Positions 3 through 33,085 of a stretch of 33,690 nucleotides of DNA are shown here, in pieces (position 1 is the stretch's first letter; each line of letters opens with the position of its first letter). The position numbers were made by a program, and so were the translations under genes. Origin of the DNA: a virus. Under the pieces are notes generated by a model, which did not search any database, was not told where the DNA came from, and saw only the letters and a program-made list of their open reading frames with translations. Location of the stretch: IMG/VR virus record IMGVR_UViG_3300035670_000790, positions 1 to 33,690 of that record, one strand, 5' to 3'.

Positions 3-65
3 CGCAAATACACATACAAAACGCGGTCGAAAGGCCGCAAGCCAAAGCCGGAGATTAGAAAATGA
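3..65 (+). CDS. C-terminal end of an unidentified basic protein (partial)
   Basis: An open frame runs from the window edge to TGA at 63-65 and encodes a very basic 20-residue tail rich in Lys and Arg. Its stop overlaps the ATG of the next gene (ATGA at 62-65), the coupling seen throughout this genome, which is the main reason to believe it. The other two frames stop in the same stretch without such coupling. No family can be named from so short a piece. Confidence 0.45.
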   Translation, partial: RKYTYKTRSKGRKPKPEIRK

Positions 66-454
66 TTGAAGAATGGCGACCAATCAACAGGACTTACGGT
101 AACTATGCCGTCAGCAATCAGGGACGAGTGATGAATGTAGACAGGGACAAGGTGCTAAAGACCAAGGACAAGGGAAAGACTGTTTCACTGATGTACGAGA
201 AGGGCAAGAACCGCAGCTACTCCATCACTCGGTTAATGTACTCAGCGTTTGTTGGCGAGATACCAGATGGTTACTATGTGGTCTGTGATGGTGCTGTGAC
301 TGTGGATAACCTCAGGCTTGAACACCAGAACGAGCGCAAGCGATTAGCAGGTATGGCGAGTGCTAGGCAGCGCAGGGGGAATTTTATTCCAGGCGAGTCG
401 CCAAACGAGATGATAGCGTCATGGCTAAAGATGCAATGGGTAGAGGCTGCATGA
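62..454 (+). CDS. NUMOD4-type HNH endonuclease-like protein, nuclease part degenerate
   Basis: 130 residues. Residues 3-31 (EEWRPI, then GNYAVSNQGRV) match the NUMOD4 DNA-binding motif found at the N-terminus of phage HNH homing endonucleases. The following part has the NLRLEHQNE pattern that in HNH proteins follows the Asn of the motif, but the expected His-Lys-Asp-Gly segment is replaced by VVCDGAV, so the metal site looks damaged. It may be a decayed or purely DNA-binding homing protein. It starts at an ATGA overlap with the upstream gene and overlaps the next gene's start in the same way. It lies just left of the first cassette array. The domain call is fairly sure; nuclease activity is doubtful. 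Confidence 0.65.
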   Translation: MIEEWRPINRTYGNYAVSNQGRVMNVDRDKVLKTKDKGKTVSLMYEKGKNRSYSITRLMYSAFVGEIPDGYYVVCDGAVTVDNLRLEHQNERKRLAGMASARQRRGNFIPGESPNEMIASWLKMQWVEAA

Positions 455-732
455 TAGGTGAGCGGATGAACAATGAAGCGAGTCCAGCGAGAGAAACGAG
501 CGATGTTGAGCGAATTGTTATACCCCACGAGGTATTAGACCTAGTGAGGTTTATGTGTGCGACATGGACAGATATAGACAAGTGGGCATACACAACCGGC
601 GATGCAATTATGCAATATCCAGTGATCCAAGGCACAAGAAACCAGATGAATCTGATGCGGATTGGTGAGCAGAAACACGATACAAGAAACATTCCAGCGG
701 CAGTAAAGTGGATGCTGGATAATGGGGTATAA
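451..732 (+). CDS. Unknown small protein whose ORF runs through a cassette boundary
   Basis: I chose ATG 451 because it makes an ATGA overlap with the preceding stop and has AGAGG at 441-445; an in-frame ATG at 421 is possible. The first ~22 residues are Glu/Ser/Arg-rich and are read from DNA resembling the inside and right half of an attC-like palindrome (ending GTTATAC at 517-523). The remainder (RFMCATWTDIDKW and on, ending MLDNGV) is the cassette-borne part, 517-733, bounded by GTTATACCCC and GGGGTATAAC. The stop TAA sits in the left box of the next attC-like site. The protein is therefore probably a chimera of site-encoded N-terminus and cassette body. No family recognised. Confidence 0.6.
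   Translation: MIGERMNNEASPARETSDVERIVIPHEVLDLVRFMCATWTDIDKWAYTTGDAIMQYPVIQGTRNQMNLMRIGEQKHDTRNIPAAVKWMLDNGV
501..523 (+). repeat. Right half of an attC-like site (left border of array 1)
   Basis: TTGAGCGAATTGTTAT here matches the right arm and right outer box of the complete attC-like sites at 26076-26134 and 31914-31967. The outer box GTTATAC (517-523) fits GTTRRRY except for one base. I could not find a convincing left arm (AGCTAACC-like) upstream, so this looks like the junction between phage DNA and the first cassette. Its box is complementary to the cassette's own right end: GTTATACCCC (517-526) against GGGGTATAAC (724-733), 10 of 10. Confidence 0.65.
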
Positions 733-774
733 CCCAGAGCTAACCGGCTAGTCCGGTTCAGCGAGTTGTTATAT
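727..774 (+). repeat. attC-like recombination site 1
   Basis: Outer boxes GTATAAC (727-733) and GTTATAT (768-774) are inverted. Inner arms GCTAACCGG (739-747) and CCGGTTCAGC (753-762) pair completely except for one extrahelical base, C759, on the right arm. The layout R''-L''-L'-R' with an unpaired arm base is the hallmark of integron attC sites. The stop codon of the ORF to the left lies in the left box, and the ORF to the right starts 25 bases after the right box. Confidence 0.85.
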
Positions 775-798
775 GGCAACTAATTAGAGGATTGAAAG

Positions 799-1392
799 AT
801 GAAAGTATTGATTGCGTGTGAATATAGCGGCATATCCAGGAGGGCGTTTGAGGCTCTAGGGCATGACGTTTGGAGCGCTGATTTTGAGCCTGCCGAAGAT
901 GGCGCGGCGAATCATTACCAGGGCGATTGCTTTGATCTCATAGAGCGTGAGCATTTTGATTTGATGATAGCGCACCCGCCATGTACGCACCTGGCAGTAA
1001 GTGGCGCGGCTTGGTTCAAGGAAAAGATTGCAGACGGCAGGCAACAGGCAGCACTTGATTTTGTGAAAAATCTCATGGGTGCGCCTATTGAAAGAATTGC
1101 TATTGAGAACCCTGTCAGCGTGATTAGCAGCAAAATACGAAAGCCAGACCAGATAATTCAGCCATGGATGTTTGGGCATACAGAACAAAAGGCTACTTGT
1201 CTATGGCTGAAAAATTTACCGAAGCTGACAGAAACAAATAACGTAAAAGCCGAAATGATGTTATTACCTAAAAGAGAGAGAGAGAGATTGCATTACTTGC
1301 CGCCAAGCCCAACTCGATGGAAAGAAAGAAGCAGAACCTACCAAGGCATTGCTGATGCTTGGGCGATGCAGTGGGGCGGTATTGCCATATAA
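799..1392 (+). CDS. Cytosine-C5-methyltransferase-fold protein, short form
   Basis: 197 residues with the layout of a C5 methyltransferase core: a motif I-like SAM loop at residues 3-20 (VLIACEYSGISRRAFE), the PPC motif with nucleophile-position Cys at 60-62, an ENP version of motif VI at 103-105, and a closing segment RTYQGIADAWAMQW near 179-192 resembling motif X. Full Dcm-type enzymes are 300 residues or more with a target-recognition domain; that domain is absent, so DNA methylation is plausible but not shown. Similar short proteins are common in phages. Start supported by AGAGG upstream. This is the whole cargo of cassette 768-1393, whose ends GTTATATGGCAA and TTGCCATATAAC pair 12 of 12. 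An (AG)n tract of about seven units from 1273 could slip. Confidence 0.75.
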   Translation: MKVLIACEYSGISRRAFEALGHDVWSADFEPAEDGAANHYQGDCFDLIEREHFDLMIAHPPCTHLAVSGAAWFKEKIADGRQQAALDFVKNLMGAPIERIAIENPVSVISSKIRKPDQIIQPWMFGHTEQKATCLWLKNLPKLTETNNVKAEMMLLPKRERERLHYLPPSPTRWKERSRTYQGIADAWAMQWGGIAI

Positions 1393-1393
1393 C

Positions 1394-1430
1394 ACTGGGT
1401 TAGACATTACATGACGGGATGTTTTACGTC
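1394..1430 (+). repeat. Type B palindrome, copy 1, right end of array 1
   Basis: Directly after the cassette end ATATAAC (1387-1393) comes ACTGG, then GTTAGACAT and the core GACGGGATGTTTTACGTC (1413-1430), closely matching the copy at 27024-27083. The right arm (ATGTCTAATACC in the other copies) is missing or replaced here by AAAGGACATAAC, which gives the next gene its ribosome-binding site. It marks the right end of array 1. Confidence 0.75.
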
Positions 1431-1442
1431 AAAGGACATAAC

Positions 1443-4977: not shown

Positions 4978-5221
4978 TTGGCGTACTCCTGAGCCACTCT
5001 ATAAACAATCGACCTATCCACGCAAATACTGAAATAGCAGCAGCACCAAGGGCAGCGAAGATAGCACCAAAAAACGATGTCCGGTATTTCTCCCAACGCT
5101 CACGCGCCATCTTCCTCTCGTCCAAATACTCGCGAACCAACGGGATAACATCACGCAGGAACTCATGATGCTCCCTGTGTTCATCAGGTTCGATATGCCT
5201 TATTTTTGCAGGATCACTCAT
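4970..5221 (-). CDS. Single-membrane-segment protein, XhlA-like or holin-associated
   Basis: 83 residues from ATG 5221; the longer frame up to 5287 overlaps the preceding small gene and is less likely. The N-terminal 48 residues are charged and helical (REHHEFLRDVIPLVREYLDE), followed by one membrane segment (FFGAIFAALGAAAISVFAWIGRLF) and a short tail. This order resembles small XhlA-like or holin-associated phage proteins. It could be a second holin or pinholin-like protein, but the real holin candidate lies at 2122-2514. Confidence 0.6.
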   Translation of the reverse strand: MSDPAKIRHIEPDEHREHHEFLRDVIPLVREYLDERKMARERWEKYRTSFFGAIFAALGAAAISVFAWIGRLFIEWLRSTPSG

Positions 5222-6198: not shown

Positions 6199-6699
6199 TT
6201 AAAATGGTCTTACATAAACGATTGCGGTGATGTCTGACCCTGTTACAGCAGCATCGATAGCCGCATAGTCAGCATCCCGAAGCGCCATAACCTGCCCGAA
6301 TATATAACATGTCAAGTCGAAGTCATTTTTAACAGCAGCATGCACATCCGCAGTCGTAGCTAATCCTGACTCTGCCTGATACCCGTCATAGTATGGCGTG
6401 TCATTTGCCACATTGTCAGTGTAGGCAACACTATCCGCACGGGCAGCAAGATACATCAAGCCCACCAAAATACTTGCAGGATCGGACGTAACAGCAAAAG
6501 CCGCCATAAGATCGTTATTGAGATCAGTGTTGTACTGGTTTTTTACAGCTAACCGAGTCGCTGCAAGGTCATATTCCCATGTGGACAATCCTGCATTCCA
6601 TGTACATGTAGGATATGGACGCTGTGTAACCTCAGTGTCAGAAGCTGAACGCCTATCGCCCTCGTAATAATTGGATGAACCGTCTATGTAGTAACCCAT
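6199..6699 (-). CDS. Tail-fibre-associated protein, possible assembly factor
   Basis: 166 residues beginning MGYYIDGSSNYYEGDRR, followed by RPYPTCTWNAGLSTWEYD. Short motifs of the type 'YYeG...RP...W' near the N-terminus occur in phage proteins encoded just after tail fibres (tail-fibre assembly and DUF4376-like proteins). The C-terminal half is helical and acidic. Its start directly abuts the fibre stop at 6699, supporting a chaperone or accessory role for that fibre. Moderately uncertain. Confidence 0.6.
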   Translation of the reverse strand: MGYYIDGSSNYYEGDRRSASDTEVTQRPYPTCTWNAGLSTWEYDLAATRLAVKNQYNTDLNNDLMAAFAVTSDPASILVGLMYLAARADSVAYTDNVANDTPYYDGYQAESGLATTADVHAAVKNDFDLTCYIFGQVMALRDADYAAIDAAVTGSDITAIVYVRPF

Positions 6700-8378
6700 T
6701 AAAATTTCCTCTTACAGATTAGCTGTGTGTTCCAGTTAGCAGATGTTAGTGTTCTAACAGTATCATTTGCTGCGACGTCAAATATAAGAGTTAAATACGC
6801 AGACATTGATATGCCGCATTTTTTCCAGTTTCCATCTGTTGCATTATTTCTTGCAAATGTATTTCCGCCTGTGTATGAGCCTGCATACCATAACAACGCA
6901 TCAACCTCGTCACCTATTCTGTATCCATACTCTGCCGTTTTACATATCAGTTTACCGCTAACATCAAAAGGCGCACCGATATTACAATTGAATGTGGTTA
7001 TTGTGCTTAACGATATTACAGCAGGCGTAGACTCATAGTAACCATTGTAGGCATAGGCAACAGTTGAAGTTACCGCGCCACCACTAGCAACAGCCTCACC
7101 AACAATCACGCGCCATGTTGCACTTGTAGCCGAACCATCGCCTACATACATCACCATCCGTCTGTAGTCGTATGTGTGAAGCCCGTTAGTAGTAGCAGCC
7201 GTGCCGCCATTCTGGAAAGCAGGGGCTACAGTAGTTACTCCGGTGGTAAATGTGCCATCAGTGCCGACATCTACATATAGATAATTTGTGGCATTGTTGG
7301 TCACAGTCCATGTAAAGTTAGCTGTGGCAGTAGCTATACGATCAGAGCCAAGCCCAAACCCTTGGGATGCACAGACAACAAACGGAACATTGCTAGTTAT
7401 ATTCTGTGTAGTCAGGGTTAAGTCTGCATCAGTAGCAGGCAGGAAATCAGGCAAGCCAGCAGATGTTATCGGGCCACCCTGTACTGTTTGCCGTACATTA
7501 GTCAACGGCATCATTGGCAAAGGGTTAAGGATTACAAAGTCAGTCCCATCATACTCAATAATCGCAACCTGACCGGACACCATAACACCTGACCGCTTGT
7601 TACCCGCCGCATCATATTGCTTGAGATTCTTGGCACCCAACGCATTTACATTGATGTCGTTACTTCCAGTTGTGCCGGTAGAGTGACAGACAACAGTAAA
7701 CCTCTGACCAGTGACATAGGCAGCAACCGCAGGACTGGCAGTAGTCAGTGTGTAGTTTGGCGCAGTACCCGCAGTGGCATACCGGATGCCTTCCTGCTCT
7801 CGGTTATTCTTCACCGTTTCCAGTGTCGCCCTAGCCTGTGCGCTAGTAGCATCGTCTAACAGTGTTTCGGCAAATGCCGTGATAGTAGTGACAGGCGAAA
7901 GGTCAGCAGGAACTATAAGAGCAGGGTCACCGCTACCATCAAAGCCTAACAATTTGTTAGCCCTGTCAGCAGAATCACCCACTATTTCCATGCCAGTAGC
8001 AGTCGTATCAGCAAAGGTCAATGTCCTGGACTGTACTGAATCTTGGTACTGCAAGATGGAATAAAGCCGGTCAATGTCATTGTCTAGCGTTTCAGACAGC
8101 AACTCCCCGCTCTGCTGGTACTCGTTTTCCCTGTCCAGATTAGGGACTAGCTTGATCAGCAATTCGGCAACACTGGCAGCAGGTGCAGTGGTGAACACAA
8201 CATTACCGCCAGTCCTTGTGCCTATACCTGTCACCGTGTACTCACTATCGGCAATCAGCACATCATCGGCATAGACCTTTAACTCCGCCTCATCAAAGCA
8301 GCAGAAAGTGTAGGCAAATGTAACCACTACCCCATCAGGGTTATAGGTGTTGTACTGTGTCTGTTCAGTGATCGCCAT
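6699..8378 (-). CDS. Tail fibre with T7-type N-terminal attachment domain
   Basis: 559 residues from ATG 8378, which overlaps the terminase stop as TAATG; an in-frame start further upstream would lie inside the terminase gene. Residues 1 to about 130 (TEQTQYNTYNPDGVVVTFAY, the YADDVLI hairpin, NDIDRLYSILQYQDSVQSRTL) match the T7 gp17 N-terminal domain that docks the fibre to the tail. The rest is Thr/Gly/Ala-rich beta structure without a T7-like shaft and should carry host recognition. Unlike T7, it lies after the large terminase. Confidence 0.88.
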   Translation of the reverse strand: MAITEQTQYNTYNPDGVVVTFAYTFCCFDEAELKVYADDVLIADSEYTVTGIGTRTGGNVVFTTAPAASVAELLIKLVPNLDRENEYQQSGELLSETLDNDIDRLYSILQYQDSVQSRTLTFADTTATGMEIVGDSADRANKLLGFDGSGDPALIVPADLSPVTTITAFAETLLDDATSAQARATLETVKNNREQEGIRYATAGTAPNYTLTTASPAVAAYVTGQRFTVVCHSTGTTGSNDINVNALGAKNLKQYDAAGNKRSGVMVSGQVAIIEYDGTDFVILNPLPMMPLTNVRQTVQGGPITSAGLPDFLPATDADLTLTTQNITSNVPFVVCASQGFGLGSDRIATATANFTWTVTNNATNYLYVDVGTDGTFTTGVTTVAPAFQNGGTAATTNGLHTYDYRRMVMYVGDGSATSATWRVIVGEAVASGGAVTSTVAYAYNGYYESTPAVISLSTITTFNCNIGAPFDVSGKLICKTAEYGYRIGDEVDALLWYAGSYTGGNTFARNNATDGNWKKCGISMSAYLTLIFDVAANDTVRTLTSANWNTQLICKRKF

Positions 8379-9994
8379 TAGTAATCTACCTGCGCCTCGA
8401 AAACGCCCGACCTTGGACTCCAATTCTGACCCTTGCTAGGGTTGAATTTCCCAAACGATTGGACACGCTCTGGAGTCATGGAAATAGCCTTGGCAGCAGA
8501 ATCTATATAGTCGTCATCGTTACTGGTAGCCGATGGGTTGAACTCTAGCAGCTCGTTATATGCCGGAGAGTCAGCTACCTGCCTGCTCATTGCCAATTGG
8601 TTTGACAGGATCAAAGGCTCAAAGGCCTCTAATATCCGCTTGTTTTTATTCTCGGATGAATGATCATCCCCTACCCCACAGACCAGTTTCCTTTGCTTGA
8701 ACGCCGCCTTTAGTACGGCAGGCATGAACTTCCCTATCCCGTTAGTCTCAACCTGCACCCTGCTAATCCGGTACTTTTCCACCACATCACAGATAGTCAT
8801 AACCTGACCACCGGTTATAGTCCTGCCATCCTCGGCAAACTCGGCAACCTCGCCAACCAACGGCAAAGCCCTGTGCCAGTACCGCTTGCCGTTCCCATCC
8901 TGTAATACCAAGGCTAGGGCAGACACATCAGACTTCAGCTTGCCGGATGCAGGGTCTATAGTAAGCGCAGCACCTACCATCTGAATCCCGTTCAATGTCA
9001 TCCTCAGCCCACCATTGACCTCATCAATGACCGGCTCACAGTCATAGACCTCTACACGCTCAGGGTCAAGCCTCACATTCCCGATAGGTCTAGCCATTAA
9101 CATATACTGACTATCCCACTCGTTCAGCGTCCGGCATTCCTTCCTGCGCTTTGCCATTTCCTTTCTGGTAAACCGCTCAGGCCATAGCGATTCAGAGTAG
9201 AAATCCACAACCTCTGCACGCTCCATCATCATCACATGCCAGCCATCAGCCGTATTGGTCAGGGTGTAGTCCTGACCTGCCTCCAATAACCTAGCACCCG
9301 ATCCGATACCAGTGAACACGAACTCAGGCTTGAACGGCATTACACCGTGATCGGTATTGTTTACCCTGTAATAATGCTCGAACATCCGCAAGATAAGACA
9401 GTCAGCACCGCCTTTCTTTACCTCATCATATAAGGAGTGATGGGTATGTGGAGTGCCTACATATAGCCTGCGCCCTCCTGGCACTAGGATGTGCGTCTGT
9501 TCGCTTAACCTATACCTTAGCTTTTCCCTAGCCTCGGCACTCTGTATATTCCTTGGCACTTCTACATCATCATTCTGTATCTCATCCGCACGGGAACTGG
9601 TGACGTTAGAGGTTATCCCCCTTGCCTGCATTGACGGGTTGCGAGGATCGGTAGAACCTTCCACCCACCACATCTGCACTTCCCCTTGCTGCTTTTTCAT
9701 CTTGCGGGTAAGTGGATGCCGCTCTATTACTGCTAGGGTATCTCTGCTCATCTTGTATGCGGTATCGTCCTGATCGCCTTGATGCAAGATCCTATAGGAA
9801 GGATCACAGTAGTATCTCCAAGCGTTATAGACAGCAAGGATAGTAGACTTTGCATGACCCCTTGGCATCATCAGTAAAGCCGTTTCAGTGAACGACTCAA
9901 GGAACGCACAGACTCGAAGGTGAAAGTCCGGCACATCCCATCTCTGGACATCAGCCCAAATCAGGAAGAAAACCGAAAAGCTAACCTTGTTCAC
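8378..9994 (-). CDS. terL: Terminase large subunit, T7 gp19-like
   Basis: 538 residues. ATPase: Walker A-like PRGHAKST at 44-51 and SRADEIQNDDVEVP near 134-147 with the Walker B acidic pair D142-D143. Nuclease: TIDPASG with D347, D356 in KSD, and VETNGIG with E416, the pattern of the RNase H-like headful-type nuclease. Length and the RAD...DDVE block agree with T7 gp19-type motors. It pumps DNA through the portal and cuts concatemers. It overlaps the small-terminase candidate by 14 bases. Confidence 0.95.
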   Translation of the reverse strand: MNKVSFSVFFLIWADVQRWDVPDFHLRVCAFLESFTETALLMMPRGHAKSTILAVYNAWRYYCDPSYRILHQGDQDDTAYKMSRDTLAVIERHPLTRKMKKQQGEVQMWWVEGSTDPRNPSMQARGITSNVTSSRADEIQNDDVEVPRNIQSAEAREKLRYRLSEQTHILVPGGRRLYVGTPHTHHSLYDEVKKGGADCLILRMFEHYYRVNNTDHGVMPFKPEFVFTGIGSGARLLEAGQDYTLTNTADGWHVMMMERAEVVDFYSESLWPERFTRKEMAKRRKECRTLNEWDSQYMLMARPIGNVRLDPERVEVYDCEPVIDEVNGGLRMTLNGIQMVGAALTIDPASGKLKSDVSALALVLQDGNGKRYWHRALPLVGEVAEFAEDGRTITGGQVMTICDVVEKYRISRVQVETNGIGKFMPAVLKAAFKQRKLVCGVGDDHSSENKNKRILEAFEPLILSNQLAMSRQVADSPAYNELLEFNPSATSNDDDYIDSAAKAISMTPERVQSFGKFNPSKGQNWSPRSGVFEAQVDY

Positions 9995-25702: not shown

Positions 25703-25708
25703 TCATCC

Positions 25709-25773
25709 AAATGTCTTATATACTTGAACTGTGTGCTTGTTAATATGGACACATCAACCACGGAGATGCAGAC
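25709..25773 (+). promoter_or_regulatory. Duplicated promoter/leader block, copy 1
   Basis: A 65-base block ending at the ATG of the next gene, repeated at 29718-29782 with exactly the same spacing. The left part shares AAATGTCTNATNTACTNGA; the right 29 bases before the start codon are almost identical, from TATGGACACATCAACC through CGGAGATGCAGA, including the GGAG ribosome-binding site. TAATAT at 25741 could be a -10 box. It faces away from the late promoters, making 25660-25773 a divergent control region. Confidence 0.6.
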
Positions 25774-25944
25774 ATGAGCAAGTACCACGTTACAAAAGAA
25801 GGGTTAAGGGTTGGCGCTGGCGGTTATCCGATATGCGGAACAAGAAACAAGGACAGATATTTTGTTGTGACGCTGAAAAAATCAGATTTTGAAGCGTTAC
25901 CGCCTGAGCAACAATGCAGTAAGTGCGCGGTAAGAATTAAATGA
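25774..25944 (+). CDS. Small hypothetical protein, first early gene
   Basis: 56 residues, MSKYHVTKEGLRVGAGGYPI through CSKCAVRIK. C47-x2-C50 and an earlier Cys could make a small metal site (first CGTR near residue 21). It starts right after the duplicated leader with its GGAG site, and ends at an ATGA overlap with the next gene. Probably an early regulator or accessory protein; function unknown. Confidence 0.65.
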   Translation: MSKYHVTKEGLRVGAGGYPICGTRNKDRYFVVTLKKSDFEALPPEQQCSKCAVRIK

Positions 25945-26081
25945 AACCAAAATCTGAACTCATGGCCAGACTTCGCAAGGAGCGAGCTGGCAAGGGGCTG
26001 GTAGAGCTGCGGCTGTGGCTTACGCCAGAACAGAAAGAGCGCGTCTTGAAGTGCGTGTCGCGGCTGAAGCGTGACGCATAA
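25941..26081 (+). CDS. Small ribbon-helix-helix-like protein
   Basis: 46 residues: KSELMARLRKERAGKGLVEL, then RLWLTPEQKERVLKCVSRLK. The Lys/Arg helix, 'GLVELRLWLTPEQ' strand and following helix resemble short phage proteins thought to bind DNA through a ribbon-helix-helix fold. Starts at ATGA. Its stop TAA forms part of the left box of the first attC-like site in array 2, so it is the last phage gene, or an unflanked cassette ORF, before that array. Confidence 0.6.
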   Translation: MKPKSELMARLRKERAGKGLVELRLWLTPEQKERVLKCVSRLKRDA

Positions 26082-26134
26082 TCCAGAGCTAACCGGCTCG
26101 CGTTAGCGAGTCCGAGTTGAGCGAATTGTTATGT
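26076..26134 (+). repeat. attC-like site 2, first of array 2 (59 bp)
   Basis: Outer boxes GCATAAT (26076-26082, final C changed to T) and GTTATGT (26128-26134). Arms GCTAACCGG (26088-26096) and CCGAGTTGAGC (26112-26122) pair throughout except A26115 and G26119, two extrahelical bases on the right arm. Loop CTCGCGTTAGCGAG is itself self-complementary. The 59-bp length and two-bulge structure are classic for attC. Read on the minus strand it begins ACATAACAATTCGCTCAAC, very close to the start of common class 1 attC sites. Confidence 0.9.
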
Positions 26135-26156
26135 GCTGGTAAGGTAAGGGGTATTT

Positions 26157-26333
26157 ATGGAATATGAAGAACTGAAACGAAGATGCGAAGTCATTGAACA
26201 ATGCTTACCCGATTCTCCATTTAAGAATCAAATTATAGAGCTGCATAAAGAGATGCTTTACCGGATTGATTCTTTAGGACAGGCATTAGAAGCAACGAAT
26301 GACGAATTGGCTGATTTGCTTTATAGCACATAA
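26157..26333 (+). CDS. Cassette ORF, 58-residue helical protein
   Basis: MEYEELKRRCEVIEQCLPDS to ...LADLLYST. Mostly acidic helix with two Cys. AAGGGG lies upstream of ATG 26157. The stop TAA lies in the left box of the next site. Its cassette is bounded by GTTATGTGCT (26128-26137) and AGCACATAAC (26325-26334), a perfect 10-bp inverted repeat. Function unknown. Confidence 0.65.
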   Translation: MEYEELKRRCEVIEQCLPDSPFKNQIIELHKEMLYRIDSLGQALEATNDELADLLYST

Positions 26334-26402
26334 CCCAGAGCTATGGGGCGAGCGTAGCGAGTCCAACGAACGGAGTGAGTGACCATGAGCGAATTGTTAT
26401 AT
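26328..26402 (+). repeat. attC-like site 3 (75 bp, extended loop)
   Basis: Outer boxes ACATAAC (26328-26334) and GTTATAT (26396-26402). Arms GCTATGG (26340-26346) and CCATGAGC (26383-26390) pair except for G26387, one extrahelical base on the right arm. The long middle contains its own short complementary pieces, like the variable terminal structure of many attC sites. Confidence 0.88.
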
Positions 26403-26418
26403 GGCTAAAGGAGATTAT

Positions 26419-26745
26419 ATGAGCGTGATTTGTAGAAACACCGGATGCAGACAGGAAATAGAATGTATAAATTGCGATTGTGGGTTAGTGGTTTATTTGC
26501 ACAGTCTAACACCGCAGGCAAAAACAATGACTTGGAATGAATGGAGAGCCGCTGGCGGTTGTGGGCTTTCTATGTTAGCAGATGGTGAACTGCATAGGAG
26601 CGGGATATTAGAAAAGCCATTGGCTATACAAAACCCGCTGCTAGGAGATGTTGCGCGTGGTTCTGTTCTTGCAGAGCGCGAGATTGCAAGATTTGGGTAC
26701 AAGAATCTAGGCATGGATAATTGGGCTGTGCGAGAAGCCATATAA
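26419..26745 (+). CDS. Cassette ORF, Cys-rich protein
   Basis: 108 residues from ATG 26419, which has AAAGGAG six bases upstream; a longer in-frame start ATG 26401 lies in the attC box. Residues 5-23 carry six Cys (ICRNTGCRQEIECINCDCG), probably a zinc-binding knot, followed by a Trp-containing helical body. No family recognised. The cassette ends GTTATATGGC and GCCATATAAC are a perfect 10-bp inverted repeat. Confidence 0.65.
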   Translation: MSVICRNTGCRQEIECINCDCGLVVYLHSLTPQAKTMTWNEWRAAGGCGLSMLADGELHRSGILEKPLAIQNPLLGDVARGSVLAEREIARFGYKNLGMDNWAVREAI

Positions 26746-26792
26746 CCCAGTTTTTCAGCGGGCGAAGCTCCGGTGCAAAACCGTTGTTAGGC
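26740..26792 (+). repeat. attC-like site 4
   Basis: Outer boxes ATATAAC (26740-26746) and GTTAGGC (26786-26792); GTTAGGC fits GTTRRRY exactly and is the commonest integron right box. Arms TTTTTCAGCGG and CCGGTGCAAAA pair with two mismatches around GCGAAGCT. The boxes do not match each other because each belongs to a different neighbour cassette. Confidence 0.82.
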
Positions 26793-26818
26793 GTTGTAAT
26801 TAACGAGAGGTAGAGAAG

Positions 26819-27022
26819 ATGGACGAAATCAGGAAATATAGATTTACAATTGATGTAGAGATTCAGATTTCAGGAAGGCAGATAGACGAAGAAAAAATAA
26901 ATCAGATGCTTGTATGTTCGACTAATGAGCATGGAATGCCTGGAGTGCTTTTCGATGATGATGATTTAGATATTCAGGCATTTAGTAATTCGTGGGAAGT
27001 TTCATGCGATAGGATCGCCTAA
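26819..27022 (+). CDS. Cassette ORF, 67-residue acidic protein
   Basis: MDEIRKYRFTIDVEIQISGR, with an acidic DDDDLDIQ segment near the end. The alternating pattern in residues 5-20 suggests a beta strand pair. GAGAGG precedes the start. The stop TAA lies in the cassette's right box; ends GTTAGGCG (26786-26793) and CGCCTAAC (27016-27023) are complementary over 8 bases. Function unknown. Confidence 0.65.
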   Translation: MDEIRKYRFTIDVEIQISGRQIDEEKINQMLVCSTNEHGMPGVLFDDDDLDIQAFSNSWEVSCDRIA

Positions 27023-27023
27023 C

Positions 27024-27083
27024 ACTGGGTTAGACATCACATGACGGGAAGTTTTACGTCATATCAGCGGAATGTCTAATACC
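27024..27083 (+). repeat. Type B palindrome, copy 2, right end of array 2
   Basis: After the cassette end GCCTAAC comes ACTGG, then GTTAGACAT (27029-27037), core GACGGGAAGTTTTACGTC (27043-27060) whose ends TGACG/CGTCA pair, and ATGTCTAATACC closing the outer arm. GTTAGACAT and ATGTCTAAT are inverted with one mismatch, so it looks like a minimal cassette without an ORF. It has no T tract, arguing against a simple terminator. Confidence 0.8.
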
Positions 27084-27136
27084 ACAATTGCTATGGATTG
27101 CTAGAATGAGGCTGTAAATCAAACGAGGGTACGCAA

Positions 27137-28864: not shown

Positions 28865-28995
28865 GCTTTGGCGTACCGGTGAACTGTATGCGTGTTTTAT
28901 ACTTTGATGTGCGGCTAGGGTAGCTCCCGAAAAGCCTGCCCTGTCTGACGGGCTTGCCGCATATCTTATCAGACCACCTAGACAGAGGTATTACA

Positions 28996-29709
28996 GTGAG
29001 CAACAAATTCCTAGATTTGGCATGGAAAGCCAATGTCACGCATACGCAGAAACTTGTCCTAATATCACTCGCAGATCAGGCTAACGATGACGGCATATGC
29101 TGGCCATCTGTATCAACGACATCCCAGCGCACCGGATTATGCGAACGAGCGACCAGACGCGCACTGGCTGACCTAGAGAAACAGGGTAATATCAAGAGAA
29201 GCTACCACACCGGCAGACCGACAATATACACCCTAACCCCTGCACTAGATGCACCCATGCACGAAATGCACCCCTGCACCACATGCCCCCCACCCCTGCA
29301 CCACATGCAGGACACCCCTGCACCAGATGCCTATGACCCCTGCACCACGAGTCAACATAACCATAAAGAACCATCATTGAACCATCAATTAACCATCATT
29401 GACGCTCCAGCCAAGGCTGTCGCCAAAAAGGTTAGGGCTACTAGGTTGTATTCTGATTGGAAACTACCAGAGGAATGGGCAGAGTGGGCAACGATAGAGG
29501 GTATGGATAGCGTGACAGTTAGGAAGCAAGAGAGCATATTCAGGGACTACTGGATAGCAAAGTCAGGAAAGGATGCTGCCAAACTGGACTGGGAGGCAAC
29601 TTGGCGTAACTGGGTCAGGAGGCATCTAGATCGTAATCCGGTTAAGGCACAGCCTGCTGATGACTTCCTGGCTCGTCACACAGACAGGTCATGGGCTGAG
29701 GGTCTGTAG
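28996..29709 (+). CDS. Replication initiator, helix-turn-helix plus DnaT-like C-terminus
   Basis: 237 residues from GTG 28996, preferred over ATG 28954 because of AGAGG at 28983-28987 and because MSNKFLDLAWKANVTHTQKL is the usual beginning. Residues 1-85 are the helix_turn_helix_36 domain (WPSVSTTSQRTGLCERATRR, ALADLEKQGNIKR). A linker (residues about 80-125) is encoded by the iterons. The C-terminus (ESIFRDYWIAKSGKDAAKLD, WEATWRNWVRRHL) is the DnaT/primosomal type seen in phage replication proteins. It should bind the iterons and recruit helicase, as lambda O does. Confidence 0.85.
   Translation: MSNKFLDLAWKANVTHTQKLVLISLADQANDDGICWPSVSTTSQRTGLCERATRRALADLEKQGNIKRSYHTGRPTIYTLTPALDAPMHEMHPCTTCPPPLHHMQDTPAPDAYDPCTTSQHNHKEPSLNHQLTIIDAPAKAVAKKVRATRLYSDWKLPEEWAEWATIEGMDSVTVRKQESIFRDYWIAKSGKDAAKLDWEATWRNWVRRHLDRNPVKAQPADDFLARHTDRSWAEGL
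29236..29352 (+). repeat. Iterons, putative replication origin inside the initiator gene
   Basis: Six copies of a 17-bp unit, consensus ACCCCTGCACCACATGC, starting at 29236, 29253, 29270, 29292, 29314 and 29336. Spacing is 17, 17, 22, 22, 22 bp; 22 bp is about two helical turns. The last copy is diverged at its end. An AT-rich tract with repeated ACCATCATT-type words (29357-29400) follows and could be the unwinding element. Location inside the initiator gene next to an AT-rich stretch matches lambda ori in gene O. Confidence 0.8.
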
Positions 29710-29717
29710 CCTACGAC

Positions 29718-29782
29718 AAATGTCTAATTTACTGGATTTGCAGGATTGGTAGTATGGACACATCAACCACGGAGATGCAGAT
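29718..29782 (+). promoter_or_regulatory. Duplicated promoter/leader block, copy 2
   Basis: Same 65-base layout as 25709-25773: AAATGTCTAATTTACTGGAT, then at the same distance TATGGACACATCAACC and CGGAGATGCAGA up to the ATG at 29783. The identical spacing with a diverged middle suggests that the ends are constrained by function, probably a promoter plus leader with ribosome-binding site. Confidence 0.6.
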
Positions 29783-29911
29783 ATGAACACACTCAGCAAG
29801 AAACAAGAGATTCAGGTTCGCCGCCAAGCGCAGAAACACTTAAGAGGTATCCCAGCTCGCCAAAATGCTGCAGCCATTGTCAGAGCAGCAGCAGAGATAG
29901 GAAAGCAGTAA
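29783..29911 (+). CDS. Small basic protein, 42 residues
   Basis: MNTLSKKQEIQVRRQAQKHL with RGIPARQNAAAIVRAAAEIG and a KQ end; one basic helix-rich domain. It starts directly after the duplicated leader and its TAA overlaps the next ATG (TAATG). Likely an early nucleic-acid-associated peptide; function unknown. Confidence 0.6.
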   Translation: MNTLSKKQEIQVRRQAQKHLRGIPARQNAAAIVRAAAEIGKQ

Positions 29912-31695: not shown

Positions 31696-31731
31696 ATGAC
31701 TACTGAACTTGTGCGACTTGTTAGGCTATGA
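31696..31731 (+). CDS. 11-residue leader peptide across the array 3 border
   Basis: AAAGGAAG lies seven bases upstream of ATG 31696, a better ribosome-binding site than most genes here. The frame reads MTTELVRLVRL and stops at TGA 31729-31731, overlapping ATG 31728 of the first cassette ORF (ATGA). It would feed ribosomes into a cassette that lacks its own site. The attI1 site of class 1 integrons is known to hold a similar short ORF that boosts cassette translation. Confidence 0.5.
   Translation: MTTELVRLVRL
31720..31726 (+). repeat. Single GTTAGGC box at the left border of array 3
   Basis: A perfect GTTRRRY box one base before the first cassette ORF, without the palindromic arms of the attC-like sites. 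It is complementary to the right end of the same cassette, GCCTAAC at 31914-31920. It therefore looks like a simple, attI-like or secondary insertion point. Confidence 0.6.
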
Positions 31732-31919
31732 AAAAGCATCATCTAGTCAAAATAGAATGGCGAGATCCTTGTTCAGATTGGCCGTGGTTTTTTATCATTG
31801 GATTTGATGGTGAATGGGTGCATTTGCGCGGCGCGGATTACCCGGATGGAACTGGGAAACACGACGGATCATCATTCTGGGTTCACAGAAATGAGATCAA
31901 GTCAATGATTGATGCCTAA
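31728..31919 (+). CDS. Cassette ORF, 63 residues
   Basis: MKKHHLVKIEWRDPCSDWPW and on, rich in Trp and His, ending NEIKSMIDA. The LVKIEWRDP and EWVHLRGAD strands suggest a small beta barrel (SH3-like), only a guess. It begins in the border box and has no separate ribosome-binding site; the overlapping leader peptide can supply translation. The TAA stop is in the next site's left box. Confidence 0.6.
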   Translation: MKKHHLVKIEWRDPCSDWPWFFIIGFDGEWVHLRGADYPDGTGKHDGSSFWVHRNEIKSMIDA

Positions 31920-31967
31920 CCCACAGCTAACCGGCGCGAAGCGTCCGAGTTGAGCGAATTTTTAGGC
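31914..31967 (+). repeat. attC-like site 5, first of array 3
   Basis: Outer boxes GCCTAAC (31914-31920) and TTTAGGC (31961-31967; first G of GTTAGGC changed to T). Arms GCTAACCGG (31926-31934) and CCGAGTTGAGC (31945-31955) pair except A31948 and G31952. The arms are identical to those of 26076-26134 while the loop differs (CGCGAAGCGT), showing the same site family. Confidence 0.88.
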
Positions 31968-31994
31968 GGCAACTAACTACAGAGGATAAACAGA

Positions 31995-32312
31995 ATGAAA
32001 CGCGATAAATATAAGTTACAAAAAGACTTTGAGGGCCGGTTTGCCGGTAGATTCGGAAATAATATCGTTTCCAAAAAAACACCATCTGGTGAATATGAAA
32101 ACGGCGATGTATTGGCTATGTATTGCGGATATGTTGCCGGGATAGACTCTGTGAAAATAAAAGTCCCGGCAACTTCAGTAAGATGGCGCGATGCAAATAC
32201 CGCAAAGCTAGAGGATATTTTAAATGCCGAAATAGAAATGAGAAATAAATTTATAGACGCCTGTCGAGAGGCTGGTATAGAGCCGGTATTCGGTGGAGAT
32301 ATAGATGATTGA
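31995..32312 (+). CDS. Cassette ORF, 105 residues
   Basis: MKRDKYKLQKDFEGRFAGRF, then EIEMRNKFIDACREAGIEPV and an acidic end. AGAGGATAAACAG precedes ATG 31995. Basic first half, helical second half; no family recognised. Its cassette is the only one whose two ends do not match: TTTAGGC on the left, GTATAAC on the right (32314-32320). Confidence 0.6.
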   Translation: MKRDKYKLQKDFEGRFAGRFGNNIVSKKTPSGEYENGDVLAMYCGYVAGIDSVKIKVPATSVRWRDANTAKLEDILNAEIEMRNKFIDACREAGIEPVFGGDIDD

Positions 32313-32313
32313 C

Positions 32314-32400
32314 GTATAACCCAGAGCTGAGGGGCGAGAGATGAGCGAAGCGAAGAACGAGTCCAGTGGCGAAGCCACGACCTCTAGCGAGTTGTTATGT
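32314..32400 (+). repeat. attC-like site 6 (87 bp, extended loop)
   Basis: Outer boxes GTATAAC (32314-32320) and GTTATGT (32394-32400). Arms GCTGAGG (32326-32332) and CCTCTAGC (32381-32388) pair except T32385. The long loop has an inner GTGGC...GCCAC hairpin and contains the ATG (32341) of the next ORF. Confidence 0.85.
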
Positions 32401-32601
32401 TGCAGAGAGTGCGGAAACACTTTTATAGAATGTTTCCCATCTTGGTGGGTTGGCTGCAAACCGTGCAATAACCATGTTAGCGGGGCGACACGCAGCGGTG
32501 CGGTTTCCAGATGGAATAAGCAACATAACCAGTTTATTCAGCGGTGCGCAGCATCCGCTGGAATTAGTTGTTATATGCCACATGGAGAAATCACATGGTA
32601 G
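32341..32601 (+). CDS. Cassette ORF with Lar-like zinc ribbon, fused through two attC-like sites
   Basis: 86 residues. The core CCRECGNTFIECFPSWWVGC, KPCNNHVSG and AVSRWNKQ has the spacing of short zinc-ribbon proteins of the Lar restriction-alleviation type (C-x2-C ... C-x2-C/N, then A-x-x-x-W-N). The first ~19 residues are read from the loop of site 6, the last ~17 from site 7 and the next cassette's beginning, because this frame has no stop in the box ACATAAC. The native product may thus be a chimera or start at an alternative codon near 32391. The cassette is only 32394-32529. Confidence 0.5.
   Translation: MSEAKNESSGEATTSSELLCCRECGNTFIECFPSWWVGCKPCNNHVSGATRSGAVSRWNKQHNQFIQRCAASAGISCYMPHGEITW
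32523..32576 (+). repeat. attC-like site 7
   Basis: Outer boxes ACATAAC (32523-32529) and GTTATAT (32570-32576). Arms ATTCAGCGG (32536-32544) and CCGCTGGAAT (32555-32564) pair with a single extra G on the right arm around loop TGCGCAGCAT. The arms differ in sequence from the GCTAACCGG family but keep the same architecture and bulge position, so structure is conserved rather than sequence. Confidence 0.87.
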
Positions 32602-32972
32602 TCACAGGCAGGGTACATGGAGCGGCAGCCAGAAAATATGCTGGTTATTGCTACAGAAAGCCTATAAAAACTAGGCTTGATATTTTTTCGATTGATCCCG
32701 CAAGGATTGATCCTTTACATGAATACCCGAGAATAATAGAAAAGCCCATGTACCCAGCGGAATGCAAAACTGTTGATCTGGCGGATTATGAAGCGTTTAT
32801 TGGCGCAATGAATGAGAAAGGTGAAAGCCAATTAACCATAACTATGCTGCCAAACGAGTACACACAAGCTGAAGTGCCGCTGGTAGTTTACGAGATGACA
32901 ATAAACGGGATACTGCCAAACAGTGGTTTTTGTATCGACGAGGCTATGAGACGCTGTTTCAGTGGCATATAA
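32595..32972 (+). CDS. Cassette ORF, 125 residues
   Basis: MVVTGRVHGAAARKYAGYCY and on, then IDPARIDPLHEYPRIIEKPM and LTITMLPNEYTQAEVPLVVY. ATG 32595 has GGAGAAA upstream; a longer frame from 32568 begins inside the attC box. Alpha/beta character, no family recognised. Its cassette has the best ends of all: GTTATATGCCAC (32570-32581) and GTGGCATATAAC (32962-32973), 12 of 12. Confidence 0.65.
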   Translation: MVVTGRVHGAAARKYAGYCYRKPIKTRLDIFSIDPARIDPLHEYPRIIEKPMYPAECKTVDLADYEAFIGAMNEKGESQLTITMLPNEYTQAEVPLVVYEMTINGILPNSGFCIDEAMRRCFSGI

Positions 32973-32973
32973 C

Positions 32974-33033
32974 ACTGGGTTAGACATCACATGACGCAAA
33001 ACATCCCGTAATATCAGCGGAATGTCTAATACC
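32974..33033 (+). repeat. Type B palindrome, copy 3 with inverted core, right end of array 3
   Basis: ACTGG, GTTAGACATCACAT and TATCAGCGGAATGTCTAATACC are the same as in copy 2, but the 18-base core is GACGCAAAACATCCCGTA (32993-33010). That matches the reverse complement of copy 1's core at 16 of 18 positions and of copy 2's at 15 of 18, and does not match either core in direct orientation. It follows the last cassette end at 32973. Confidence 0.82.
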
Positions 33034-33085
33034 ACAGCACCAAAAAGCATGGAACAATACAGACTCAATACATCGGAGAATGGTT

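Follow-up and report, generated by a model that had tools for sequence, protein, structure and literature searches.

Integron-type cassette arrays with inverted attC sites among the early genes of a tailed phage

Results

Three cassette arrays in one phage contig

We find that a 33,690-base contig from a tailed phage, which is the entire IMG/VR virus record IMGVR_UViG_3300035670_000790 and is referred to here as the window, carries nine gene cassettes in three arrays that are, judged from their sequence, of the integron type and lie in the early region of the phage. We consider it quite probable that these arrays are clusters of attC sites lacking an integron integrase (CALINs), that their cassettes are exchanged as units, most likely by the integrase of a host, that their attC sites are inverted, and that a DNA methyltransferase gene at 799-1392 is one such cassette.

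Plus-strand early genes lie at both ends of the contig and the structural genes are on the minus strand; the contig is classed as linear and so may be a fragment. Three rows of short genes with hairpins between them are found, all in the plus-strand part:

477-1431, plus strand, array 1, two cassettes (1a and 1b)
26,076-27,086, plus strand, array 2, three cassettes (2a-2c)
about 31,700-33,036, plus strand, array 3, four cassettes (3a-3d)

A first-pass annotation of this DNA had described array 1 as one of three, and three arrays with nine cassettes are indeed present. Arrays and cassettes were called with a custom end-match detector, distinct from IntegronFinder, in metagenomic genomes that may be incomplete. 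All three arrays fit the definition of a CALIN (at least two close attC sites without intI); the window, itself a possibly incomplete contig, gives no match to PF00589 or TIGR02249 and hence no intI, so it does not hold a complete integron. The cassettes mostly have their own ribosome-binding site, and the stop codon is often part of the recombination core (TAA|C, where the bar marks the predicted crossover). No close DNA relative of the window was found among GenBank phages.

The features of array 1 are as follows:

477-523, plus strand, upstream site of array 1; the right half (GTTGAGCGAATTGTTATA) alone is recognisable; repeat families D13 and D14
517-733, plus strand, cassette 1a, GTTATACCCCA...TGGGGTATAAC; perfect own-end match of 11 nucleotides (nt)
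727-774, plus strand, attC site between 1a and 1b, scored as inverted relative to the genes; fold z -3.9; strand score -19.3
768-1393, plus strand, cassette 1b (methyltransferase), GTTATATGGCAA...TTGCCATATAAC; 12-nt perfect own-end match
799-1392, plus strand, C5-methyltransferase-domain protein of 197 residues; phrog_757 'DNA methyltransferase', E 5.7e-69
1393-1431, plus strand, closing element of array 1; sequence repeated at 27020 and 32970

The open frame of cassette 1a comprises 62 codons from 544 (start uncertain) and ends at TAA|C. The crossover points of array 1 are probably the TAA|C at 732/733 and at 1392/1393, which would make 733-1392 the unit of cassette 1b. Both cassettes had been placed at 517-733 and 768-1393 in the first-pass annotation, and both are found there, with end matches of 11 and 12 nt and an intervening site that folds as an attC. 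The same annotation had them bounded by a single site family; its anatomy and coordinates are right, but the upstream site at 477-523 is a half-site only, in which no L stem was found upstream, and the downstream boundary at 1390-1431 is a different hairpin element.

Private cassette ends and attC architecture

Each cassette was read forward from the GTT at its start and, as the reverse complement, back from the AAC at its end; the two readings share perfect runs of 11, 12, 10, 11, 8, 7, 0, 10 and 12 nt for cassettes 1a to 3d in order. Eight of the nine, cassette 3b being the exception, begin with the reverse complement of their own end over 7-12 nt, such that start and end would make one private attC in the circle. 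Among the 362,880 permutations of nine cassettes, none does as well as matching every start to the end of the same cassette, and the window yields seven calls of the end-match type, compared to a mean of 0.13 and a maximum of 2 in 300 shuffles.

At most sites, AAC/GTT cores with 5-7 pairing bases conform to the R''/R' core boxes (RYYYAAC...GTTRRRY), and the relaxed middle bases of the window cores (GTATAAC/GTTATAT) are the same as in control attCs. Site 727-774 folds with a 6-bp R stem, a 5/5-nt unpaired spacer and an L stem with one extrahelical base, and none of 200 shuffles is equally stable (z = -3.9). The combination of L stem, extrahelical base and unpaired central spacer is seen here and at 5072-5119 of phage contig L096, while the longer attC sites fold poorly in isolation.

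Inverted orientation of attC with respect to the genes

Control attCs were taken from a class 1 integron (P1 isolate MH445380), TJE1, a V. anguillarum integron phage, a Shewanella prophage integron and Endozoicomonas, and compared with 17 phage sites (7 in the window, 7 in L096, 2 in L095 and 1 in L097), all read in the direction of the gene. The extrahelical base lies in the left arm of 31 of the 33 controls scored, and AA follows AAC in 33 of 35, whereas in phage sites the right arm holds this base (12 of 12 scored) and GTT is preceded by TT (16 of 17). Matrix scoring, with whole records left out in turn, replaced a planned covariance model and favours the gene strand in 27 of 27 controls and the opposite strand in 15 of 17 phage sites, mostly by 12-28 bits. 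Most phage sites do not display the standard strand asymmetry of an attC relative to its gene, and these comparisons show that, by their sequence features, they are inverted with respect to those of bacterial cassettes, an orientation that the first-pass annotation had missed.

The same inverted direction is found in G001 (with its gene on the minus strand), G003/L096, L095, L097, G008, L175 and MW202573. An Endozoicomonas site of the same attC subfamily is in the normal orientation, in a genome that has a gene for a true integron integrase (448 bits). A TAA|C stop codon was considered as a hallmark of inverted cassettes and was not used as evidence, because it is also common in normal ones (15/21 versus 15/36). 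Besides L096, a second attC pattern matched only L101-L103, which are due to chance and fall within coding sequence.

Details are at hand for two inverted arrays outside the window. L107 (IMGVR_UViG_3300022744_000032, 6421-8876) is a seven-cassette inverted array on a 58-kb phage contig with an ordinary phage-type integrase, and its cargo includes phrog_419, phrog_839 and phrog_31817 proteins. L175 (IMGVR_UViG_3300031673_005042, 900-2260) carries a phrog_419 gene in an inverted array of a different attC subfamily (TAACGCTGA...TTTTGTTATG); it is the one real array in a survey of phrog_419 relatives, in which the isolated single calls L155 and L157 may be chance.

Cassette turnover at fixed slots in a related phage

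The protein of cassette 3d, used as a query, retrieves a single locus, L196, which lies on G008, a contig of 38 kb that shares with the window its capsid (82% identical), portal (78%) and terminase (64%). Neither a methyltransferase homologue nor a tyrosine recombinase match was found in G008. The slot of array 1, which in G008 precedes a lysozyme and a weak homologue (43% over 30 residues) of gene 1419-1610, is occupied there by two clear cassettes (32,903-32,662 and 32,621-32,308) and a decayed third, none similar to cassette 1a or to the methyltransferase. The G008 copy of cassette 3d, which is 86% identical, in turn sits behind the small KRDA gene, which precedes array 2 in the window, and DNA identity of 82% extends over window positions 32,542-32,973 and drops off at the predicted crossover TAA|C. 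Since the same slot of a related phage holds different cassettes, genes appear to be exchanged one unit at a time, and the comparison shows what we interpret as an exchange of whole cassettes at fixed slots.

The KRDA gene occurs twice in G008 (L196, 4666-4935 and 6053-6190), the first copy ahead of cassette 3d and the second within the next cassette, immediately in front of the terminal element. This duplicate suggests that cassettes may be born from genes that adjoin the terminal element.

A shared terminal element

One hairpin element (1390-1431 in array 1), distinct from the attC sites, closes all three arrays, and CACTAATTAGAAATCACCTGACG...ACGTCA, probably its homologue, stands at the end of the array in G008. 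Its position would be compatible with an attI-like acceptor. Neither the terminal element nor an empty site gave an exact match in IMG/VR. In array 3, the head of the terminal hairpin (32992-33012) is inverted compared to 1411-1431 and to array 2; about 16 bp between ACG/CGT repeats are flipped, as by a small hairpin inversion.

The methyltransferase cassette

The protein encoded by 799-1392 has no Pfam, NCBIfam or PDB sequence match. It belongs to phrog_757, a family with members in 728 GenBank phage records, which bears out the first-pass description of a C5-methyltransferase-like protein widespread in phages. An alignment of 37 relatives has invariant PPC at 60-62 and N104-P105, with E103 nearly so, and a Foldseek search with the AlphaFold2 model (mean predicted local distance difference test score, pLDDT, 91.8) returns the catalytic domains of DNMT3A (E down to 2.6e-7) and then M.HhaI. 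By this model and alignment, the product has the fold of a C5-cytosine DNA methyltransferase, with PPC and ENx motifs. Its probable role would be to modify phage DNA against host restriction.

Full-length relatives with 56-60% identity occur in cyanophage P-SSP7 and Burkholderia phage Bcep1. Unlike the window gene, phrog_757 relatives in IMG/VR lack comparable cassette ends in all 79 testable loci (best run 8 nt, versus 12 nt in the window), and together with the 728 phage records this points to a phage gene family that is here packaged as a cassette. Comparing phages with and without the flanking sites, as the first-pass annotation had proposed, thus gives one related phage with the same slot but no methyltransferase and 79 relatives with the gene but no such ends; the gene is not always confined to one phage context devoid of sites. 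The idea that cassettes may carry genes useful to phages rather than host genes fits the families recognised, which are phage families (phrog_757 here, and phrog_419 in like cassettes of other phages). Those other cassette proteins of the window that were tested have no Pfam or PHROGs match, eight proteins searched as possible defence genes have no match in PADLOC, and those of cassettes 3b and 3d have no relative among GenBank phages.

Features of arrays 2 and 3 and their surroundings

The remaining features of arrays 2 and 3 are:

25941-26081, plus strand, small KRDA gene ahead of array 2; its G008 counterpart stands before cassette 3d
26076-26134, plus strand, opening attC site of array 2, with a left core that has mutated to AAT
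26128-26334, plus strand, cassette 2a; 10-nt own-end match
26328-26402, plus strand, attC site 2a/2b; strand score -20.9; weak fold alone
26396-26746, plus strand, cassette 2b, open reading frame (ORF) of 114 residues; 11-nt own-end match
26740-26792, plus strand, attC site 2b/2c; strand score +0.8, strands not separated
26786-27023, plus strand, cassette 2c, 67-residue ORF; 8-nt own-end match
27023-27086, plus strand, terminal element of array 2; repeat D1; fold z -3.0; homologue in G008
31720-31920, plus strand, cassette 3a, 63-residue ORF; 7-nt own-end match
31914-31967, plus strand, attC site 3a/3b; right core decayed to TTT; strand score -20.8
31961-32320, plus strand, cassette 3b, 105-residue ORF; sole cassette without an end match
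32314-32400, plus strand, attC site 3b/3c; strand score -12.1
32394-32529, plus strand, cassette 3c, 136 bp; 10-nt own-end match; no ORF of at least 35 residues ending at TAA|C
32523-32576, plus strand, attC site 3c/3d; extrahelical base on the inverted side; fold z -3.1; matrix score does not separate the strands
32570-32973, plus strand, cassette 3d, 125-residue ORF from 32595; 12-nt own-end match; relocated in phage contig G008
32973-33036, plus strand, terminal element of array 3; repeats D1 and I17; head of the hairpin flipped compared with arrays 1 and 2

Array 1 is immediately preceded by one further gene, of the HNH-like homing endonuclease type:

62-454, plus strand, HNH endonuclease with a NUMOD4 motif (Pfam NUMOD4, 3.2e-8; phrog_59 HNH, 1e-14)

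An HNH-like protein (G008, 33672-33343) also lies upstream of the matching array in the related phage, with no detectable similarity to that of 62-454. Elsewhere in the window, an int-alpA RNA (28908-28975; Rfam RF02996, E 0.00028) is found immediately upstream of the gene for an HTH_36 protein, within which 22-nt direct repeats (29231-29348) encode a short repeated motif. A 73-nt repeat, 82% identical between 25708-25780 and 29717-29789 and with a further copy in G008, has a Shine-Dalgarno-like leader (GGACACATCAACCACGGAGATGCAGA) and precedes two unrelated small genes.

Discussion

Several observations weigh against the view that these arrays are CALINs whose inverted cassettes are exchanged as units. 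Some sites are decayed (S1a, the half-site upstream of 3a, and 3b), two cores have decayed and cassette 3b has lost its end match; the matrix test fails to tell the strands apart at two window sites (26,746 and 32,529); G005 and G007, relatives by TerL, are without arrays; it is position alone that marks the terminal element as attI-like; and the 197-residue methyltransferase model is a catalytic domain only, with no separate target-recognition domain, for which a protein of this length has no space in its normal form. The decay and the lost end match, together with the lack of an integrase, would be expected if the arrays were relics, captured once from a bacterial integron and now changing only by homologous recombination between phages at the repeated sites. 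Among the products of the phage are a Sak annealing protein and NinB/NinG-like recombination proteins that could join short homologies. We nonetheless think this unlikely: homologous exchange between different sites would scramble the private end matches, most of which are 10-12 nt long, the unit found in G008 ends at the crossover base, and the cargo resembles phage rather than bacterial genes.

The two sites that do not separate the strands, the normal orientation of the CALINs in TJE1 and the V. anguillarum phage, and the TAA|C stop that normal cassettes also often have would all suit ordinary CALINs, with true attCs and bacterial-like behaviour, in which inversion has no functional meaning and reflects drift or relaxed strand choice. 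This, too, seems improbable to us, as every strand-informative site in four phage contigs points in the same direction, mostly by the 12-28 bits found above, and the extrahelical base is on the unusual side in 12 of 12. That the hairpins lie between short genes could also indicate intergenic terminators or repetitive extragenic palindromic (REP)-like elements and not recombination sites at all, but terminator-like matches in the region number 5 versus 6.4 in shuffles, with none on an attC site on the gene strand, and neither the private inverted ends nor the relocation of a unit would be explained; this reading is strongly disfavoured and hardly credible.

Under the preferred interpretation, that of integrase-less arrays with exchangeable cassettes, each cassette is a gene joined to an attC hairpin, as its sequence shows. 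The integron integrase of the infected host would act in trans on the folded single plus strand and cut at TAA|C; with an inverted attC, it is the phage coding strand that would recombine, and the shared downstream element would be at the position of attI. The cassettes may then be transcribed from upstream phage promoters, the methyltransferase together with the phage early genes. L096 was considered as a phage that might supply its own integron integrase and was rejected: its recombinase scores far short of the cut-offs for integrases and for Xer, has no TIGR02249 match, and so looks like an ordinary phage integrase.

Like the bacterial integrons of V. anguillarum and Shewanella, the P1-borne class 1 integron and that of Endozoicomonas, the window has tandem single-gene cassettes with matching ends, R and L boxes, an unpaired spacer and an extrahelical base; it differs in having no intI, an attI-like element by position only, and attC sites inverted relative to the gene. 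The 'inverted' integrons of Treponema (PMC3607928) are unusual in the orientation of the integrase gene, whereas here it is that of the attC relative to the cassette gene. Qi 2023 (PMC9892861) describes phage CALINs, methyltransferase cassettes among them, proposes that such cassettes counter host defence and reports that IntI1 is active on five of six phage sites tested. The phage CALINs given there (TJE1, PH101, P12002L and MW202573) are likewise integrase-less attC arrays, some with methyltransferase cassettes; TJE1 has the normal attC orientation, unlike the window, and MW202573, whose methyltransferase array is already listed in that report, is inverted by our strand test. Its main text describes divergent attC directions in one phage, with no general inversion and no slot-by-slot comparison of related phages. 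Our literature searches, which did not cover subscription papers and preprints, found no report of inverted phage cassettes or of slot turnover. As far as that report extends, phage arrays with methyltransferase cassettes are already known, and the inverted architecture and the slot turnover are apparently new.

With one slot that differs between relatives and one unit moved with its edges intact, phage attC sites become a plausible working exchange system, and their inversion raises a direct question on strand choice and gene orientation in integrons. In integrons, the chirality of the attC sets the orientation of an inserted gene relative to the array promoter. If this rule applies, phage cassettes would be silent in a bacterial integron and bacterial cassettes would be antisense in phage arrays. 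We tentatively suggest, as a possibility about which we remain somewhat doubtful, that phages share a pool of inverted-attC cassettes of their own, moved between phage arrays with host integrases and functionally insulated from the bacterial pool. If this is true, phages would shuffle early, possibly anti-defence, genes with integron machinery, apart from the bacterial cassette pool.
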